64,000 bases of DNA from Chelativorans salis (lineage in GTDB: Bacteria > Pseudomonadota > Alphaproteobacteria > Rhizobiales > Rhizobiaceae): the NCBI RefSeq assembly GCF_025336525.1, contig NZ_JAOCZP010000004.1:1-64000 (forward strand), read 5' to 3'. The position numbers and the translations under genes were made by a program. This document shows, piece after piece, positions 2,941 through 26,511 of this stretch (its first letter is position 1; every line of letters begins with the position of its first letter). A model generated the notes under the pieces. It did not search any database and was not told where the DNA came from. It saw only the letters and a program-made list of their open reading frames with translations.

Positions 2941-5900
2941 TCACGCTCTCGTGAGTCGGGCAAGGGCGGCGGCCATGTCCTCATCGCTCAGGGGGAGAAG
3001 GCGCGGTACCTCGGTGAAAAGCAGGGCGGCGGAGATCCGACGGCCTGGATAAAGCGGTTTCAAGAGCTCCGCGTAAAGCGCGAGCTGCGCCACATAGGGC
3101 AGCGGTACTTCGGCAAGCGCGGCGGGTGCCGGACGGTTGGTCTTGTAGTCTATGATGAGCACCGCCTCCTCTGTCACCGCCAGGCGGTCGACCTTGCCGG
3201 CGACGGCGCGACGTGCTCCGCCGATGGTCAGTTCACCCATTACCGACACCTCGGCCCGCGATCCGGGGGCGAAAAGCGGTGCAAAGCCGGCGTCCTGCAG
3301 AATTGCCAGGACGGAGGCGAGGATGCCTTCCGCCTCCCCCTCGGGCCAGCCGGCACCGACACGCGCCAGATAGCGGCGGGCGGCGGGCTCGCGCTCGTCG
3401 GACGACAGGTCGGGCAAAACCTGCAGCAGGCGATGCACCGCGTTCCCCCGCTCCAGCGCAAGGCCCGGCCCTTCTGCGCCGTCGAGGACAGGCGAGCGCG
3501 CCGAGGGAGTCGCCTCGAAACCGCCGTCGATCAAGGCACCGGCACCCGATGGCGAAAGCGGGCGCGGCAACGTTGGCGGAGGCGGCAGCGGCTGCCGCAA
3601 CTCCAGCGGCAGAGGCTCGACCGCCACCTCGCGCGTGGCGGCCGCCTCAACCGGCTCAGCCTCGGAGAGCGGTGTGACGCGGAAGCGCAGAACGGGCGAG
3701 CAATCCTTCGGGTCGTCCCGCTCCTCGGTCTCCGGCTGGCCGGCAAAGGCGTCGCCCACGAGCGTCTGCCAGGTAGTGGGCGCGGGGCGCGTTCCGTGAT
3801 AGCCGCAGACGATCAATCGGTCCTCGGCCCGCGTCATGCCGACATAGAGCAGGCGGCGGTACTCTTCCTCCGCCTTTTCCCGCACTTCCGCCTCGAAACG
3901 GCGGGCAAGCGAATTGGAAAGGTCCTTGCCCTGGCGCCAGAGATAGCCCGTCAGCGGCCGGGGCCCCTGCATGGAGAAAGGCATGAGGGCCGGCAGGTGA
4001 TTGTTGCTGACGGGCGCGCTGCCGGGGTCGACGAGAAAGACCACCGGCGCCTCCAACCCCTTGGCGGCGTGTACGGTCATGATACGAATTTCGTCGCGCG
4101 ACTGGTCCATCTCGCGCTTGATCTCGGGCGCCGCGCCCTCCAGCGTCGCCAAGAGCGCCTCCAGGCCGACCAGGCCCGTCTTCTCGCCCGCCAGGCAGAA
4201 GGAAAGGAACTCGTCCAGGATATCGTGCGCCTCGTGCCCCAGCCGGGCGACGAAGCGGCTGCGGGCGCCTTCACGCTTCGGCGTGCCGGCGAGCACGCCG
4301 GCATAGAACTCGAAGACCGGCTTGAAGGCGGCTTGGGCCTGCCAGTCGACCAGCGTGTCGAGAATATCTTTCAGCGCCCCATCTGCCTCCGCCTGCTCCC
4401 GCAACACAGCGAACAGGGAGACGCGTTCCTTACGCGGCCAAGCGAGACGGAACAGGGCCTCCTCGTCGAGCCCGAAGAGCGGGCTCTTGAGCACCGCCGC
4501 CAGCGACAGGTCGTCGTGGGGTTGCAGGAGAAAACGACCGAGCGCCGTCAGGTCCTTGACGGCGATATGCGCCGTCAGGCGCAGGCGGTCGGCACCGGCC
4601 ACGGAAATCCGGCGGTTCTTGAGGCTGCGCGACAGCGCGTGGACGAAACGGTCGCGCTTCCTGACCAGGACCATGATGTCGCCCGGCCTGAGGCGACGGC
4701 CCTGCCCCTCCAGGATCTCGCCGTCCTTCAGCCAGCGCTCGATCCTGCCGGCGATCACTTCCGCCAGCCGCGCGGCGGGGGCGGAGGCGTGGTCGACGGC
4801 CTGGGTCCAGTCGTCCGGCTCCTCCACGACCTCCGGACTCAGCGGCGACCAGACCTCCACATAACCCGGCGCGTTCTTGCGGACGGCCTCATGCTCGATC
4901 GGCTCGGGATCGCGGGTGAGGCCGCGGCGCGCCTCCTCGCGCGAAAACACCACGTCGACCGCGCGCAGCACGTCGTAGGTGGAGCGGAAGGAGCGCTTCA
5001 GCCGCACTTTCGCAAAGCGCCCGCCGCCCTGCGGAACGCGCTTGTCGAAGGCGGCGCCGCTCTCCGCGAAGGCGGCGGGCTCGGCGCCCTGGAAGGAGTA
5101 GATCGACTGCTTCTCGTCGCCGACGGCAAAGATGGTGCGTTCCACGCCCTTACGCGATCCTTCGCCGGCAAAGAACTCTTCGGCGAGTTGCCGCACGATC
5201 TGCCATTGCGGCGGGCTCGTGTCTTGCGCCTCATCGATCAGGATGTGGTCGATGCCGCGGTCGAGCTTGTACTGCACCCAGGGGCCGACGTCCGGACGGG
5301 CCAGGAGCCGCACTGTGCGCATGATGAGGTCGCTGAAATCGAGGAAACCGCGCGCCCGCTTCAGCCGCTCATAGCGGGAGATCAGCGCGTCGGCGATGGT
5401 GAGCGCGGCACTTGTCGCGTCCAACATGCGGTAGAGCCTCAGCCGGTCGGCGGCCTCCTGCAGAAACGTCGCCGCCTCCAGATAGCGCTGGTAGAGGCCG
5501 GGCAGGCGATCCTTCAGCGCCGCCTTGAAGGTGCTGTCTTCATAGGGGTCGCCGTCTGCCTTGAGGAAGCCCTCGGCCAACAGCTCCAGGCGGCGCACAG
5601 GAGCGACCTCTGCGAACCCCAACGAGGCGATGGGGACGATGTTTTTCAGTACCGTGCGCGCGTCCGTCTCCTCGGCGGCGGCGACGAAGCGGCCGAATTC
5701 CACCGGGTCGAAACCGGGCACGGGCCAGGCCGAGGCGGCAAGGCTCTCGGCGGCCTCGCCTTCAGCGAAACCGAACTCGGCAAGCAGCTCAGGCAGACAG
5801 GAGACGCCATCGGTTGTGGCATCGATGAAGAGGCGCAGCTCCTCGCGTTTCGCCACGATCTCAGCAAGCAGCCGCTGCAGGCCGCTCTCTCCACCGCGCT

Positions 5901-6462
5901 CCAGCACCTGCGCAAAGGCATTCGCCAGCGGGCCGTCGCCCTCGGCGGCGACAGCGGTCAGGAGGTCGCGCCGCGCCTCGGCGAACAACGCCTCTTCCAT
6001 CTGCGCGTCGAGCAGCTCGAAATGGCCGGCGATGTTTGCCTCCAGCGGGAACTGGTGCAGGATCGCCTCGCAGAAGGCGTGGATGGTCTGGATCTTCAGC
6101 CCGCCGGGCGTTTCCAGCGCTCGGGCGAAGAGCTGCCGTGCGCGGCGCAGCTTTTCCTGCCCCGGCATGCCGCCCTCGAGGCGAGTGATCTCCTCGGCCA
6201 GTTTCTCGTCCGGCAGCAGGCTCCAGCCGGCGAGCTTTTCGAACACGCGGTTGGCCATGTTGGCGGCGGCGGCGCGTGTATAGGTGAGGCAGAGGACTTT
6301 CGCGGGGTCCGTGCCCTTCAGAAGCAGGCGGATGACGCGGCTTGCGAGCACATGCGTCTTGCCCGAACCGGCATGGGCCGACACCCAGGCCGAGAGCGCC
6401 GGGTCGGAGGCGAGCGCCTGGGTCCTCAGCGTGTCCTCGGGGATGCGGAGAGGCTTCTTCAT
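2941..6462 (-). CDS. addA: Double-strand break repair helicase/nuclease AddA
   Basis: AddA is the UvrD-like motor and one nuclease of the AddAB complex, which resects double-strand breaks for RecA loading and replaces RecBCD in alphaproteobacteria. The 1173-aa protein has Walker A AGSGKT at residues 31-36, the region [16 protein letters not shown], the Walker B helicase motif [24 protein letters not shown], and [17 protein letters not shown]. The C-terminal RecB-type nuclease shows GKVDRLAV followed by [12 protein letters not shown], with the metal-binding Asp and Lys in place. Its ATG overlaps the addB stop by 4 bp (ATGA), so the two are translationally coupled. Confidence 0.97.
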
Positions 6463-20965: not shown

Positions 20966-21796
20966 ATGTTCACCCACAGCTCGGTTCGCCGAAGATCGCG
21001 CGGCGGCAGACTTGCCGTCACCATGGCGACGCTGCTTTTGGCAGCCGCAGTCGCCGGTTGCGCCGGCCACAACCGCAAGGTCGGCGGCATGACCACCGGC
21101 TCCATCGCCGGCGGCGACCGGTCTGTCGTGGCATCGATGTCCGGCCCCGAACTCGAAAACGCCGCCGCCAGTCTCGGCAGGACCTACACCCAAAACCCCA
21201 AGGATAAGCCGGTCGCGCTGCAATACGCCAGCATCCTGCAGATGAGTGGGCGCACCGACCAGTCGCTCGCCGTCATGCGCAAGCTGGCGATCGCCTATCC
21301 GAAGGACCGCGAGGTGCTGGCCGCCTACGGCAAGGCGCTCGCCGCCGCCGGCGAGTTGGAGCCGGCGCTGGATGCCGTCCGCCGCGCACAAACGCCGGAA
21401 TATCCCGATTGGCGCCTGCTGTCGGCCGAAGGGGCGATCCTTGACCAGCTCGGGGAACCCGACCAGGCCCGTGCGCTCTATCACCGCGCGCTGGATATCG
21501 AACCCGGCGAGCCGTCCGTTCTCTCCAACCTCGGCATGTCCTACTTGCTCGCAGGCGACCTGAAGACTGCCGAGACGCATATGCGCCAAGCCGCCGCCGC
21601 GCCCGGCGCCGACAGCCGCGTGCGCCAGAACCTGGCCCTCGTTATCGGCCTGCAAGGCCGCTTCACTGAGGCCGAAAAGATCGCCCGCCAGGAGCTTTCG
21701 CCCCAGCAGGCCGAAGCCAACGTCACCTATCTGCGCTCGATGCTCGCCCAGAGCGACAGCTGGACGCAGATCGCCAGGGAGGACGGTGCAGGCTGA
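20966..21796 (+). CDS. TadD-like tetratricopeptide lipoprotein
   Basis: A 276-aa protein with a lipoprotein signal: basic N-terminus, hydrophobic stretch and lipobox VAGC (Cys32). The mature part is built of TPR units (KPVALQYASILQMSGRTDQS, EVLAAYGKALAAAGELEPAL, PSVLSNLGMSYLLAGDLKTA). This matches TadD, the outer-membrane pilotin-like factor of Flp/Tad pilus machines. No other tad gene lies in this window, so it is either an orphan or serves a locus elsewhere. It diverges from the M17 aminopeptidase, as in related genomes. Confidence 0.8.
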   Translation: MFTHSSVRRRSRGGRLAVTMATLLLAAAVAGCAGHNRKVGGMTTGSIAGGDRSVVASMSGPELENAAASLGRTYTQNPKDKPVALQYASILQMSGRTDQSLAVMRKLAIAYPKDREVLAAYGKALAAAGELEPALDAVRRAQTPEYPDWRLLSAEGAILDQLGEPDQARALYHRALDIEPGEPSVLSNLGMSYLLAGDLKTAETHMRQAAAAPGADSRVRQNLALVIGLQGRFTEAEKIARQELSPQQAEANVTYLRSMLAQSDSWTQIAREDGAG

Positions 21797-21895: not shown

Positions 21896-22700
21896 ATGAC
21901 CTTTCATGCTGACCTGCACGTCCATTCGAAATATTCCCGCGCCACCAGTCGGAATCTCGATCTCGAGCATCTTGCCTGGTGGGCGGCGCGCAAGGGAGTT
22001 GGTGTAGTCGGCACCGGCGACTGCGTGCATCCGGCCTGGCTTTCCGAGATCAAGGACATGCTCGTGCCCGATGGCGGGCTTTTCCGCCTGCGGCCCGAGA
22101 TCGACGCGGAGATCGAAAAGACCCTGCCGCCCGCCTGCCGCAAGCCCGTCCGCTTCATGCTGTCGACGGAAATCTCGACCATCTATAAGAAGGGCGAGAA
22201 GACTCGGAAAATCCACCACCTGATCTACGCACCCGATCTGGAAGCCGTCACCGGCTGGCGGCGAACCTTGGGCGGATCGGCAATATTGCCTCCGACGGGC
22301 GGCCGATCCTCGGGCTCGATTCGCGCGACCTTCTGGAGATCGCGCTGGAATCGGGGCCGCATTCCTATCTCGTGCCGGCGCATATCTGGACGCCGTGGTT
22401 CGCCGCCCTCGGCTCGCAGTCGGGCTTCGATTCAATCGAGGAATGCTACGGCGACCTCGCCCATCACATTTTCGCAGTGGAGACCGGGCTTTCCTCCGAC
22501 CCGGAGATGAACTGGCGCGTCTCGTTCCTCGACCGCTACAGGCTGACGTCCAACTCCGATGCGCATTCGCCGGGCAAGCTCGGCCGCGAGGCGACGCGCT
22601 TTTCCTGCGAGGCGGACTATTTCGCCATCCGCCGGGCGCTGGAGACGGGCGAGGGGTATGAAGGCACGGTGGCGTTTTTCCCGGAGGAAGGAAATACCAC
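21896..22700 (+). pseudogene. Endonuclease Q-like PHP nuclease domain, split by two -1 frameshifts from its helicase half
   Basis: The ATG at 21896 opens a PHP-fold nuclease (HADLHVHSKYSRATS, GTGDCVHPAW, RFMLSTEISTIYKKGEKTR) that reads normally to LIYAPDLEAVTGW. Near 22259 the coding frame moves by -1 to a second frame carrying IGNIASDGRPILGLDSRDLL, PAHIWTPWFAALGSQSGFDS and LTSNSDAHSPGKLGREATR. Near 22690 (FFPEEG then KYHMDGHR) it moves by -1 again into the frame of the 740-aa helicase. Restoring one base at each point would give a single ~1010-residue protein: PHP nuclease, zinc motif, UvrD helicase. EndoQ of archaea nicks DNA 5' of deaminated bases. As it stands, the product would stop at codon 204 with ~80 wrong residues. 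The breaks could be real inactivation or base-call errors. Confidence 0.82.
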
Positions 22701-24923
22701 ATGGACGGGCATCGCGCCTGCGGCGTGCGGCTCGACCCGAAAGAGACGCTGGCGCTCAACGGGCGCTGCCCGGTCTGTGGCAACCGGGTGACAGTGGGCG
22801 TGGCGCACCGCGTGGAGAAGCTGGCCGACCACGGCGAGGCCGTGCGACCGGCAACGGCCGGAGAGGTGGCGAGTCTCCCGGGCGACAGCGGCGCTGGGCC
22901 GGAGCTTTTCGCGCTTGCTGAGGTGCCGGTGGAGGATATCGGACGTGCCGATTCGCTGCTCGGGGAGGCGGTGGCGCGGCTGCGGGCGTGCGCGGTGATC
23001 CGTCAGGCCGGCTATGACGGGGAATACGGCGTGATCCGGCTGTTCGAGGAAAGCGAACTCGACCGTTTCACCAAGGGCGACCTTCTTTTCGACGCGCCGG
23101 TGCGTCGCCGCAAACGGGCACCTAAGCCGCAGGCAGAGCAATCAGCGCCGGTAGAGGCGCCTTCGCAGCCAGCGCCCTCGGTGCCGGCGCCTTCCGCACG
23201 CCAAGGGGTACTGGCCACCCTCGACGCCGATCAGGCTGCCGCGGCAGCGATGATCGAAGGACCGCTGACGGTCATCGGCGGACCCGGCTCGGGCAAGACA
23301 CGCATGCTGACCCGCCGCATCGCCCATCTGGTGCTGGAATGCGGCGTGCCGGCCGCCTCCTGCCTTGCCATCACCTTCACGCGCAAGGCGACGGAAGAGT
23401 TGCGGGCGCGGCTTGCCGCTCTGCTGCCGGGCGTGGCGAAGGATGCGGCGGTGCACAGTTTCCATTCGCTGGGTCTTGCCATCCTGCGCACCCATGGGAC
23501 GGAGCTCGGCCTTGGCACCGATTTCCGCATTGCCGATGAAAAGGAACGGACGGCAGCACTCGTCGCGGCGCTGCAAATCAGCGAAAGCCGCGCCACACGG
23601 CTCGTCAAGGCGGTCTCCGTGATGAAGCGGACGGGCGCCATCGACGAGGGCGAGGAAGGGGGAGCTCGCGCCGTGCTCGACCGGCTGGGGCGGGAGGGAA
23701 ACTGGGTCGATTTCGACGATCTGGTGGCGCTTTCGGTGGCACTTCTGGAGGAGCGCGCGGAGATCGCCGCGCTCTGGCGGGAGCGCTTTACACATATCCT
23801 GGCCGACGAGTTCCAGGACGTGGACGAGCAGCAGTATCGCCTCTTACAGCTTCTTGCCGGGCCTGGCGGCAATCTCTGCGTGATCGGCGATCCCAACCAG
23901 GCGATCTACGGATTCCGCGGCGCAGACGCCACGTGCTTTGCACGCTTTGCCGGCGACTTCCCCGACGCCCGTACGGCACGGCTCAAGCACAATTACCGCT
24001 CCACCGGCACCATTGTCACCGCCGCCACCCAGCTTATGGACGAAGCGCCGGACGGTATGACACGGCCGATGGAGGCGCCAATCGTGGTGCGCACGGCTGC
24101 GGACGAGGAGGCCGAAGCGGCCTTTGTCGCCGCGACGATCGAGGCGTTTTTGGGCGGGCACGACATGCTTGCCGCGCACGGTGGCAAGCCGGATCGGCAG
24201 GGCGACACGCCGCTCAGCTTCGCCGATTTCGCCGTACTTTGCCGCACCGACGCACAGTCGGCGGCCTTCCGCGAGGCCTTCGACCGCGCCGGCATCCCGT
24301 TCAAGAAGAGTTCACCCGCGCCGATCGCCGGGCATGCGGGCCTCGGGGCGATGCTTCGTGCGCTGGAACGGCAGAGCGACGCGGAGGCTGGCCGGGATTT
24401 GCCGGGGCGTCTTGCCGCGGCCGCGGAAGCTGCGAGGCGAGAGGAGGATGCGGACGCTGCGGCGCTCGCCGAGGCGCGAGGGTGGCTCACAACGCTCGCC
24501 ACCTCCGAGTCGGTAGGTGGCGATGTGGCGCTGCTCGCCGAACAGATAGCACTTTCCACCGAAGCCGACTTCCGCGATGCCCGTGCCGACCGTGTCTCGC
24601 TGCTCACCATGCACGCTGCCAAGGGGCTGGAGTTTCCGGTGGTCTTTGTCGTCGGGATGGAGGACGGGCTGGTGCCGTTCTCCTGGGCACCGAGCGCCGA
24701 ACAGGACGTGCACTCGCGCGCCGAGGAGCGGCGCCTGTTCTACGTCGCCATGACGCGGGCCATGGACTGGCTGTTCCTTACGCGCACTGCCGAGCGGTTC
24801 TGGCGCGGCGCCGTGCGCTCGCTACCGCCTTCGCCTTTCCTGGGCGACATTGCGGATACGTTGACGGCGAGCCATACTGCGGCGAAGCGAAAGCCGCGGG
24901 CGCGGCAGCTCAGTCTGTTCTGA
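22701..24923 (+). CDS. UvrD/Rep-type helicase (C-terminal part of EndoQ-helicase fusion), ends in a beta-clamp motif
   Basis: A 740-aa open frame. It begins with the zinc motif normally ending EndoQ (HRACGV then GRCPVCGNRV), a basic/proline-rich linker (~residues 125-170), and a superfamily 1A helicase: Walker A GGPGSGKT near 193-200, AITFTRKATEELRARL, DEFQDVDEQQYRLLQLL, GDPNQAIYGFRGAD, HNYRST, TMHAAKGLEFPVVFVVG and VAMTRAMDWLFLT. The last residues, RQLSLF, match the bacterial sliding-clamp-binding pentapeptide QL[SD]LF. In relatives the protein is fused to the PHP nuclease just upstream; here a frameshift separates them. GAAGGA (22687-22692) lies 8 bases before this ATG, so the helicase could still be translated alone. 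It is convergent with ubiB. Confidence 0.9.
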   Translation: MDGHRACGVRLDPKETLALNGRCPVCGNRVTVGVAHRVEKLADHGEAVRPATAGEVASLPGDSGAGPELFALAEVPVEDIGRADSLLGEAVARLRACAVIRQAGYDGEYGVIRLFEESELDRFTKGDLLFDAPVRRRKRAPKPQAEQSAPVEAPSQPAPSVPAPSARQGVLATLDADQAAAAAMIEGPLTVIGGPGSGKTRMLTRRIAHLVLECGVPAASCLAITFTRKATEELRARLAALLPGVAKDAAVHSFHSLGLAILRTHGTELGLGTDFRIADEKERTAALVAALQISESRATRLVKAVSVMKRTGAIDEGEEGGARAVLDRLGREGNWVDFDDLVALSVALLEERAEIAALWRERFTHILADEFQDVDEQQYRLLQLLAGPGGNLCVIGDPNQAIYGFRGADATCFARFAGDFPDARTARLKHNYRSTGTIVTAATQLMDEAPDGMTRPMEAPIVVRTAADEEAEAAFVAATIEAFLGGHDMLAAHGGKPDRQGDTPLSFADFAVLCRTDAQSAAFREAFDRAGIPFKKSSPAPIAGHAGLGAMLRALERQSDAEAGRDLPGRLAAAAEAARREEDADAAALAEARGWLTTLATSESVGGDVALLAEQIALSTEADFRDARADRVSLLTMHAAKGLEFPVVFVVGMEDGLVPFSWAPSAEQDVHSRAEERRLFYVAMTRAMDWLFLTRTAERFWRGAVRSLPPSPFLGDIADTLTASHTAAKRKPRARQLSLF

Positions 24924-24936
24924 ACCTCAACAAGCC

Positions 24937-26511
24937 TCAAAAAAGCCGCAAGGCGATAGCCAGAAGTGCCAGGGCGATCACCCACAGCGCCAGGCGGCCG
25001 GACCGAGTGTGCTTTGCTTCGGCGCGGCCGATGGCCTCGGCGGTCTCCGCATCGAAGCGCAGGCCGTTCTCGGCCATCGTTTCGATCTCGCGCGACAGGC
25101 GCTCGGTGCGGGCGGCCAGTTCCGGCGCCTGGCGGGCCAGCGCCGTAAGCGCTGTGAGGCCGTCGCGGGCGTCGGTGATGAGGCCGCGTGGGCCGAGATT
25201 GGCGGCGATCCAGCTCGACACCACGGGCTCCGAGGCCTTCCACATGTTGAAATGTGGATCGAGCGTGCGCGCCACGCCCTCGACCACCACCATGGTCTTC
25301 TGCAGAAGCAGGAGTTCCGGCCGCGTCTGCATGTCGAAGAGCTCGGTCACCTCGAACAAGAGGGTCAGCAGACGTGCCATCGAGATGGTCTCGGCCGGCT
25401 GGCCGTGGATCGGCTCGCCGATGGCACGCAGCGCTTGGGCGAAGGCGGAGATGTTGTGGTGAGAAGGAACATAACCGGCTTCGAAATGCACTTCCGCCAC
25501 GCGGCGGAAGTCGCGCGTGATAAATCCGTAGAGGATCTCGGCCAGGAAGCGGCGCTCCTTGCGGCGAATGCGGCCCATGATGCCGAAGTCGACTGCGACG
25601 ATGGTGCCGTCCGCCTCCACAAACAGGTTTCCGGGGTGCATGTCGGCGTGGAAGAAGCCATCGCGCAGCGTGTGCCGCAGGAACGACTGGATGAGGGTGA
25701 CGGCGAGCCCTTCCAGGTCGTGTCCGGCAACGCGCAGCGCTTCGATGTTGGACATCTTGATGCCGTCGATCCACTCCAGCGTCAGCACGTCGCGGCCGGT
25801 GCGCCGCCAGTCCACCCATGGCACGCGGAAGCCGGGGTCTTCCTTTGCGAATTCGTGCATCTCGGAGATGGCGGCGGCCTCCAGCCTCAGGTCCATCTCG
25901 ATCTTGGTGGTCTGGGCAAGCGTCTCCGTCACCTCCACCGGGCGCAGGCGGCGGGCGGCGGCGATGTAGCGCTCCTGCAGGCGCGCGGCCAGGAAGTAGC
26001 TTTCCAGGTCATTGTAGAAGCGGCGGCGCACGCCCGGCCGGATGATCTTGACGGCGACCGGCTGCATCTCGCCTTCGCGCATGATCTTTGCCTGATGCAC
26101 CTGGGCGATGGAGGCGGCCGCCACCGGAGCGCCGAAATCCGTGTAGAGCGCCTCCACGGTGGCACCAAGCGAGGCCTCGATGGCCGCCCGCGCCTGCACC
26201 TCGGGAAAGGTCTCCATGCGGTCCTGGAGGCGCGCCAGGTCGAAGGCCATGTCGTGGCCGACCACGTCGGGCCGCGTGGCGAGGAACTGCCCGAGCTTCA
26301 CATAGGAGGGGCCGAGGCGGTCGACAGCGATCGCCAGGCGCTCGGGACGGTCGCGCTGCCCAGCGCGGCGGCGCGAAACCAGCTTGGCCACCCGCCAGCC
26401 GAGGCGCGGCATGCCTTCAAGCTGATCGCCCGGAAGGGCAGCCACCACGCCCTCGCGCAGGAGAATCCAGCCCGCGCGGACAAGGCGGAGATATGCGCCC
26501 ACTGTGCTCAT
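24937..26511 (-). CDS. ubiB: ABC1-family atypical kinase for ubiquinone biosynthesis
   Basis: A 524-aa UbiB/COQ8-type protein needed for ubiquinone assembly, probably as an ATPase acting on membrane-bound intermediates. The family's KxGQ motif appears as SYVKLGQFLATRPD, followed by the Ala-rich loop and AVKIIRP (lysine), the catalytic region HADMHPGNLFVEADGTIVAVDFG (the HxDxHPGN and DFG elements) and GRIRRKERRF. The C-terminus ends in a hydrophobic anchor (ALWVIALALLAIALRL). It follows ubiE by 7 bp on the same strand, the standard alphaproteobacterial pair. Confidence 0.96.
   Translation of the reverse strand: MSTVGAYLRLVRAGWILLREGVVAALPGDQLEGMPRLGWRVAKLVSRRRAGQRDRPERLAIAVDRLGPSYVKLGQFLATRPDVVGHDMAFDLARLQDRMETFPEVQARAAIEASLGATVEALYTDFGAPVAAASIAQVHQAKIMREGEMQPVAVKIIRPGVRRRFYNDLESYFLAARLQERYIAAARRLRPVEVTETLAQTTKIEMDLRLEAAAISEMHEFAKEDPGFRVPWVDWRRTGRDVLTLEWIDGIKMSNIEALRVAGHDLEGLAVTLIQSFLRHTLRDGFFHADMHPGNLFVEADGTIVAVDFGIMGRIRRKERRFLAEILYGFITRDFRRVAEVHFEAGYVPSHHNISAFAQALRAIGEPIHGQPAETISMARLLTLLFEVTELFDMQTRPELLLLQKTMVVVEGVARTLDPHFNMWKASEPVVSSWIAANLGPRGLITDARDGLTALTALARQAPELAARTERLSREIETMAENGLRFDAETAEAIGRAEAKHTRSGRLALWVIALALLAIALRLF

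Follow-up and report, generated by a model that had tools for sequence, protein, structure and literature searches.

Three consecutive reading frames on the forward strand, at positions 21896-24923 of a 64,000-nucleotide stretch of Chelativorans salis DNA (contig NZ_JAOCZP010000004.1, positions 1 to 64,000; hereafter the window), carry between them an EndoQ-type PHP nuclease region, a zinc motif, a UvrD-type helicase and a protein end reading RQLSLF. What gene do these frames belong to, and what would its product do? We found that they are pieces of one broken gene. In our view the window probably holds a recently broken copy of a fusion between a bacterial EndoQ-type lesion nuclease and a superfamily 1A (SF1A) UvrD-type helicase with a C-terminal sliding-clamp tag, a fusion that would work as a clamp-tethered nick-and-unwind enzyme. 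At the level of the family this reading is strongly supported by sequence and structure modelling: the domains, the catalytic, pocket and motor residues, the conservation of the motif and the agreement of folds are established, and clamp binding and activity are predicted.

Three frames of one broken gene

The first-frame piece is 87% identical to residues 1-127 of the comparison sequence P0003, the second-frame piece is 91% identical to residues 119-278, and the open frame of 740 amino acids is 84% identical to residues 361-1035. In Pfam the 740-residue piece matched UvrD-helicase and UvrD_C, and the second piece gave a sub-threshold match to PHP_C; NCBIfam TIGR00375, the EndoQ family, matched all three pieces weakly. 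Counterparts of the EndoQ metal ligands E93, H108 and H164 were found in the window, spread over two frames. All the parts that the initial annotation had read across this locus were found: the PHP region of EndoQ type, the zinc motif, the full UvrD-type helicase and RQLSLF at the end. The initial annotation had also treated them as one chain, which does not hold here: the gene in this genome is not one open frame across nuclease and helicase, and its EndoQ half is read in three frames. The features of the locus, followed by its two neighbours, are:

21896..22249, forward strand: EndoQ N-terminal (PHP) segment in the first frame, with the start codon, DLHVHS, GTGD, STEIS and KIHHLIY
22250..22689 (about), forward strand: EndoQ middle segment in the second frame, with PAHIWTPWF, ETGLSSD and SNSDAHSP
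22701..24923, forward strand: open frame of 740 amino acids with the zinc motif, the remaining EndoQ part with a net 75-nucleotide deletion, a linker, the helicase and a clamp-type tail
22710..22778, forward strand: zinc-binding motif H..C...CxxC (HRACG...CPVCG; H274, C277, C293 and C296 of P0003), from family conservation
22877..22896, forward strand: site of the net 75-nucleotide deletion relative to two intact congeners
23277..23300, forward strand: helicase motif I (Walker A, GGPGSGKT), from sequence; G493, K496 and T497 invariant in the family
23805..23819, forward strand: helicase motif II (DEFQD), from sequence; D666 and E667 invariant
24741..24758, forward strand: helicase motif VI (YVAMTR), from sequence; R981 invariant
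24906..24920, forward strand: QLSLF, candidate beta-clamp-binding motif at the extreme C-terminus, from sequence and family conservation
20966..21796, forward strand: flanking TPR-type gene (named by reading), a syntenic marker outside the system
24937..26511, reverse strand: flanking ubiB-like gene (named by reading), a syntenic marker outside the system

Compared with the two intact congeners, the window lacks 1 nucleotide near 22249, 1 nucleotide near 22689 and a net 75 nucleotides between about 22877 and 22896; in-frame differences occur as well. All three lesions fall in the EndoQ half, and only the frame with the zinc motif and the helicase (22701-24923) is still open. Programmed frameshifting as a joiner of the frames is rejected, because a single frame spans the gene in the two congeners.

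Among 61 genomes (the window's own and 60 relatives), close orthologues were found only in G003 (84% identity) and G009 (73%), each as one open frame; the best full-gene-scale matches of the other genomes were about 40% identical. Within the genus, the 1035-residue fusion is intact in these two of 16 genomes (two of 15 congeners), broken in the window's genome (G000) and reduced to a remnant in G001, and the remaining 12 genomes gave no fusion match at E 1e-60. The TPR-type gene and the ubiB-like gene are its neighbours in G000, G001 and G003 alike, and for G009 the stretch fetched gave a match on the TPR side only. The remnant (L114; contig C13 of G001, about 4978-5340) lies at the syntenic site and has the first 47 and last 74 residues of the fusion (1-47 and 962-1035) left after an internal deletion. 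The intact genes of G003 and G009, the broken gene of the window and this remnant form a decay series.

Five neighbour genes tested align nearly end to end with their G003 counterparts, so the breaks are local to the fusion gene. Substitutions number 65 nonsynonymous to 127 synonymous in the window lineage and 65 to 96 in the G003 lineage, and these counts give no sign of relaxed selection on the window lineage. Since the substitutions of the window lineage are still coding-like, the breaks are recent, or partly assembly error.

The 740-residue frame might still be made, as a clamp-tagged helicase that has lost its EndoQ. We regard this as possible but doubtful. The frame is intact with helicase motifs and tail, it has a purine-rich stretch upstream of its ATG at 22701, the helicase part shows 45 nonsynonymous to 80 synonymous substitutions, and elsewhere the helicase does occur in a frame of its own; however, the same purine-rich stretch is coding sequence in the intact relatives, and the frame starts inside EndoQ with a partial, deleted remnant of it. 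It is unlikely that the breaks are simply sequencing or assembly errors in an ordinary intact fusion gene. Errors of this kind would fit the coding-like substitutions and the open helicase frame, but three separate lesions, one of a net 75 nucleotides, lie in a single gene while the five tested neighbours align nearly fully, and in one congener most of this gene is gone. We keep to the reading of a recently broken copy.

There is no second copy of the fusion behind two further matches at 3820-4077, which belong to another UvrD-type gene at 2941-6462 on the reverse strand. This gene is intact, encodes 1173 amino acids, is AddA by reading, and accounts for the only other listed DNA matches to the fusion in the genome.

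Nuclease, helicase and terminal motif of the intact fusion

As a family, the EndoQ-helicase fusion of the initial annotation is real: intact single-frame fusions were found in relatives, 66 in a first sample and 23 in a second, more distant one. The first sample was a contig scan limited to the best 80 of at least 589 relatives, and it leans to near relatives; a fusion was called complete above 900 amino acids, as 66 of the 80 were. The other 14 comprise two with adjoining EndoQ and helicase frames (L078, L081), one frameshift-broken gene (L059), five without a helicase next door (L039, L040, L073, L088, L094) and six loci that run off the contig. For the second sample, TIGR00375 searches at E 1e-15 gave matches in 17 of 398 Pseudomonadota genomes, 7 of 296 Actinomycetota (the phylum of G454), 23 of 199 Planctomycetota (that of G455) and 46 of 194 in the phylum of a Gastranaerophilales genome (G456). 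From these 93 places 57 were fetched (17/17, 6/7, 22/23 and 12/46, the 12 chosen to take in all nine short open reading frames), and they held 23 complete fusions, L140 being a repeat of L095 from the first sample. Alignment A2 has 67 rows, namely L005, which is identical with the L034 gene, together with L006 and 65 further complete fusions.

In the nuclease half, phmmer matched PfuEndoQ (5zb8) over residues 3-414 with an E-value of 1.6e-48, and also 7k30-7k33. Counted along the phmmer alignment, E76, H84 and H139 of PfuEndoQ correspond to E93, H108 and H164 of the fusion, and G169 and S171 to G199 and S201. All five, together with D223 and H225, are invariant in the 67 fusions, and these metal residues uphold the assignment to EndoQ made in the initial annotation. 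Of the zinc motif, C277, C293 and C296 are present in 67 of 67 and H274 in 66, the remaining one having a cysteine. Section 4.4 of a review states that E76A, H84A and H139A abolish the activity of PfuEndoQ and that H139, G169 and S171 keep thymine and adenine out of the pocket (PMC8307549). Since the catalytic and pocket residues are invariant, the parts that cutting at uracil or hypoxanthine calls for are kept. Because its TIGR00375 scores (147.6 and 167.7 bits) are under the cut-off of 326.6, the EndoQ half is, judged by these profiles, a divergent EndoQ branch and not a member of this curated hypoth_equivalog.

The motor residues G493, K496, T497, D666, E667, Q697, R703, R730 and R981 of the helicase half are likewise invariant in 67 of 67 fusions, and PF00580 matched the fusion with an E-value of 3.1e-60. 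The NCBIfam equivalogs of PcrA, UvrD and Rep gave 332.5, 275.1 and 287.8 bits against cut-offs of 911.2, 1144.45 and 951.45; by these scores the helicase half is a relative of PcrA, UvrD and Rep and not an orthologue. Its stretch from NYRS to KGLE is 190-244 residues long (median 208) in the 67 fusions and 270-273 in 26 PcrA/UvrD-type relatives, that is, about 60 residues shorter. We take this stretch to be the 2B subdomain, shortened in the fusion. The 2B subdomain is a regulatory part of UvrD and Rep, and if it is shortened the motor of the fusion may be less self-inhibited.

AlphaFold2 on A2 gave a mean predicted local distance difference test (pLDDT) score of 86.9 and a predicted template modelling (pTM) score of 0.59, with pLDDT below 50 in the linker (423-452), a loop (784-797) and the tail (1024-1035). 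Residues 1-423 of the model superposed on PfuEndoQ (5zb8) with a Z-score of 44.6 and a root-mean-square deviation of 2.8 over 386 aligned residues, and residues 465-1025 on UvrD with a best Z-score of 38.0 and a deviation of 2.6 over 531 (Foldseek and VIA-align). As modelled, the intact fusion is an EndoQ fold with a zinc-binding domain, a UvrD fold and a low-confidence tail.

The terminal pentapeptide, which the initial annotation had taken for a sliding-clamp-binding motif, proved to be conserved across full-length fusions. In the first sample Q[LMF]xL[FLI] stands exactly at the end of 58 of the 66 complete fusions (38 with QLxLF and 20 with other forms); among the remaining eight, three have the motif inside the last 14 residues and five have variants (QDSLF, QLTLSLD, QRTLFEIE, QMSFDF and QETLFEL). 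None of 481 other stop-to-stop open reading frames of at least 150 amino acids in the same loci ends in the motif. This background set started from 484 stop-to-stop frames, which are not called genes and include EndoQ pieces of non-fusion loci; its three motif matches were helicase pieces of the same family and were removed. With 58 of 66 fusions against 0 of 481 background frames, the motif is beyond chance. It also ends none of 26 rows from PcrA/UvrD-type loci, in two of which (L008, L014) the longest frame shown is not the PcrA one. In A2, Q1031 is present in 67 of 67 rows, L or M at 1032 in 63, L1034 in 66 and F, L or I at 1035 in 67, and positions 1018-1030 are variable except for a mostly basic 1028; MAFFT tends to align a terminal Q, and the count of 58 in 66 is independent of the alignment. 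In the second sample a Q motif stands near the end of all 23 complete fusions and is looser than in the first: five end exactly in Q[LMF]xL[FLI], five have the pentapeptide followed by one to five more residues, and three have QLSF[FL]. These patterns suggest that the terminal QLxLF-type peptide, on its flexible end, is a conserved candidate clamp-binding tag.

Two side observations concern this motif. An 888-residue PcrA/UvrD-type protein (L030) ends in QGDLF, possibly a clamp motif on an ordinary helicase. Members of one family, f68 (L135, L137, L138, L140, L141, L144 and L145, with L140 matching the Magnetococcales locus L095), have longer ends of the QLTLxW[DE] or QLxLxL-like type, which are perhaps the hexapeptide form of the clamp motif.

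Distribution, split forms and standalone EndoQs

Complete fusions occur in ten named phyla: Pseudomonadota, Binatota, Melainabacteria, Elusimicrobiota, Actinomycetota, Myxococcota, Acidobacteriota, Planctomycetota, Verrucomicrobiota and Poribacteria. The EndoQ part was unmatched in 50,697 phage and 72,556 plasmid records at E 1e-5. In the 8 loci recovered of 14 tried, the neighbours of the fusion differ between loci and look unrelated, as judged by eye.

The fusion might act mainly against phage DNA containing uracil or hypoxanthine instead of in housekeeping repair. A review names antiviral defence as a possible function of bacterial EndoQ (PMC8307549); the fusion is patchily distributed and has been lost repeatedly, and the helicase half matches GajB models of PADLOC, the best 25 of its 50 matches being all to GajB-type models or to one DRT-type helicase model. 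We nevertheless think a mainly antiphage role improbable: the best GajB match, at 237 bits, is below the 332 bits of PcrA and fits general UvrD kinship, the neighbours seen in the 8 loci do not speak for it, and a clamp tag would be better suited to replication-linked repair.

On the EndoQ tree, which is rooted at the midpoint only and has weak support for 37 of its 123 inner branches, the three labels are clustered but need 17 changes (minimum 2); as read from this tree, fusion and loss have been repeated, or the gene has moved. Four labels are to be read with care: L185 is marked 'clamp' from an internal QNELI and not a terminal motif, L059 is marked 'split ... no' from its first piece, L096 is marked 'no' despite a QLTLF 14 residues from the end, and L099 is marked 'no' with QMSFDF. 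A group of 41 rows, L049 to L063, brings together termite-named Elusimicrobiota, Gastranaerophilales, an alphaproteobacterium, a deltaproteobacterium and a Rickettsiales metagenome-assembled genome, a mixture that suggests gene transfer among gut bacteria. The very divergent standalone TIGR00375 relatives L173-L178 (32-37% identity) lie on a long branch, lack the clamp motif and may be a different enzyme.

Of four distinct split forms (L183, L184, L186 and L187), two are genes already listed above as L078 and L081. In all four the motif is missing from the EndoQ frame, and the helicase frame ends in QLSLF or QLTLF. The frames overlap or adjoin, and the border is always at the EndoQ end. Such borders favour a real split, with a frameshift by error or decay as the alternative; if natural, the split forms would be useful for two-protein assays. 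The helicase piece of the frameshift-broken L059 also ends in QLSLF. As far as the sequences of the sampled branch tell, the motif stays on the chain with the helicase, whether fused or split, and is missing from EndoQs without a helicase.

Shiraishi et al. 2016 reported that EndoQ homologues of bacteria have consensus sequences of the beta-clamp motif in their C-terminal region (PMC4858679). A deep clade of standalone EndoQs (L151 and L157-L160; support 84) bears out this remark with the ends QLSLL, QMKLF, QKELF, QMRMF and QMRLF. That the terminal QLxLF of the fusion serves another role, for example docking on the helicase core or on another partner, is a rather remote prospect, even if the more distant fusions depart from the pentapeptide: the motif closes a low-confidence tail, shows the L/M and F/L/I variation of clamp motifs, is absent from the PcrA/UvrD-type relatives examined apart from the QGDLF of L030, and has a counterpart of the same kind in the standalone clade.

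Proposed working and relation to known systems

The clamp-tethered nick-and-unwind reading implies four steps. The QLxLF motif would tether the intact fusion to DnaN, so that the fusion follows the clamp. The EndoQ half, by kinship and the literature on its chemistry, would then flip out a deaminated base (uracil, hypoxanthine or xanthine) or an apurinic/apyrimidinic site and nick just 5' of it, leaving a 3'-OH and a 5'-phosphate. Moving 3'->5' on the intact strand, the helicase would peel off the strand whose 5' end bears the lesion, and in this way the ligase could not simply reseal a ligatable nick with the lesion in place. Finally the clamp would pass the 3'-OH to a polymerase and the flap would be removed. 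We are evenly divided on the broader proposal that this is a widespread bacterial excision repair machine in one polypeptide, in which a clamp-tethered 5' nick at a deaminated base is followed at once by peeling of the lesion end by its own helicase against futile resealing, and the clamp passes the 3'-OH to the polymerase.

Several observations weigh against the clamp-tethered nick-and-unwind reading. Because the window's own copy is broken and only two of the 16 genus genomes keep the fusion, the fusion is dispensable. The gene is also sparse, any TIGR00375 match being confined to 17 of 398 Pseudomonadota and 7 of 296 Actinomycetota genomes. Genes of the uracil-DNA glycosylase (UDG) family are present in nine of ten tested genomes, including five of the six with an intact fusion, so the pathway of the fusion would mostly be redundant, an added one, which agrees with its frequent loss. 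H8 of the HxH pair is histidine in 65 of the 67 fusions and glutamine in two, and the relative orientation of the EndoQ and UvrD halves is not fixed in the model (pTM 0.59). The motif statistics rest on the nearest relatives, those of the first sample, and 10 of the 23 fusions in the second sample end in variants (QLTLNWDD in two, and QLSLQWE, QLTLSLD, QLAFKLE, QLTLLWE, QLTLLWD, QKSLFDF, QNLLF and QKKLF). A 112-row branch of the EndoQ tree (support 93) contains 19 standalone EndoQs that lack both a neighbouring helicase and a terminal clamp motif, so EndoQ is not strictly dependent on either. The lack of a helicase beside EndoQ is weakly tested in L146 and L149, where EndoQ lies within about 0.7 and 0.4 kb of the contig end. 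In five standalone-EndoQ genomes (G984, G990, G1100, G1066 and G1029), the only standalone genomes searched for a helicase elsewhere, we found PcrA-like matches alone, 35-44% identical where the fused control G1002 gave 69%.

The genome G082 stands apart as the only one of the ten without a UDG-family match (E 1e-5), yet with an intact fusion (L147); it is a candidate genome in which the fusion is non-redundant. Taken as a whole, the observation in the initial annotation is partly confirmed, and its interpretation is partly supported: it applies to the family and not to the disrupted copy of this genome.

TkoEndoQ is reported to bind PCNA via a C-terminal PCNA-interacting protein box with a dissociation constant of 55 nM and to be stimulated by PCNA (PMC4858679). 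Its nick is described as ligatable, and the pathway models put forward use a polymerase with Fen1, or EndoV with a helicase step (PMC4357722). B. pumilus EndoQ is reported to be active (PMC6202378). The QLDLF of E. coli DinG is predicted to bind DnaN, its significance being undetermined according to the paper (PMC12525004). The initial annotation knew of no description of the clamp link in this fusion. The clamp motif on bacterial EndoQ was already in print in 2016 (PMC4858679), so the clamp idea is less new than the initial annotation had it; no account was found in the open-access literature of an EndoQ joined to a helicase that carries the motif at its end, and no title or abstract among the matches listed from open-access PMC literature concerns the EndoQ-helicase fusion or its clamp motif.

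The steps after the EndoQ nick have so far been a matter of models, and a single chain that joins a helicase to a clamp tag would show which of them go together. The fusion also offers a single protein for rebuilding and testing glycosylase-free repair of deaminated bases in bacteria.

Among known systems, Endonuclease Q (PfuEndoQ, TkoEndoQ and B. pumilus EndoQ) has its fold and its catalytic and pocket residues in common with the fusion, and most archaeal homologues also have a C-terminal PCNA motif (PMC4858679); the fusion adds a helicase after the nuclease and has the clamp-type motif at the helicase end. The standalone bacterial EndoQs with a beta-clamp motif (Shiraishi et al. 2016; L151 and L157-L160) likewise combine EndoQ with a terminal clamp motif, but they have no adjacent helicase and the five found here form a separate deep clade. 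The SF1A helicases UvrD, PcrA and Rep have the same fold and helicase motifs, whereas the fusion falls below their equivalog cut-offs, is about 60 residues shorter in the presumed 2B stretch, and is nuclease-fused and clamp-tagged. E. coli DinG is likewise a helicase with a predicted clamp pentapeptide; unlike the fusion, it is an XPD-type helicase without an EndoQ part. If the proposed working is true, clamp tethering of EndoQ would exist in two forms, by a PCNA box in archaea and by a beta-clamp motif in bacteria.

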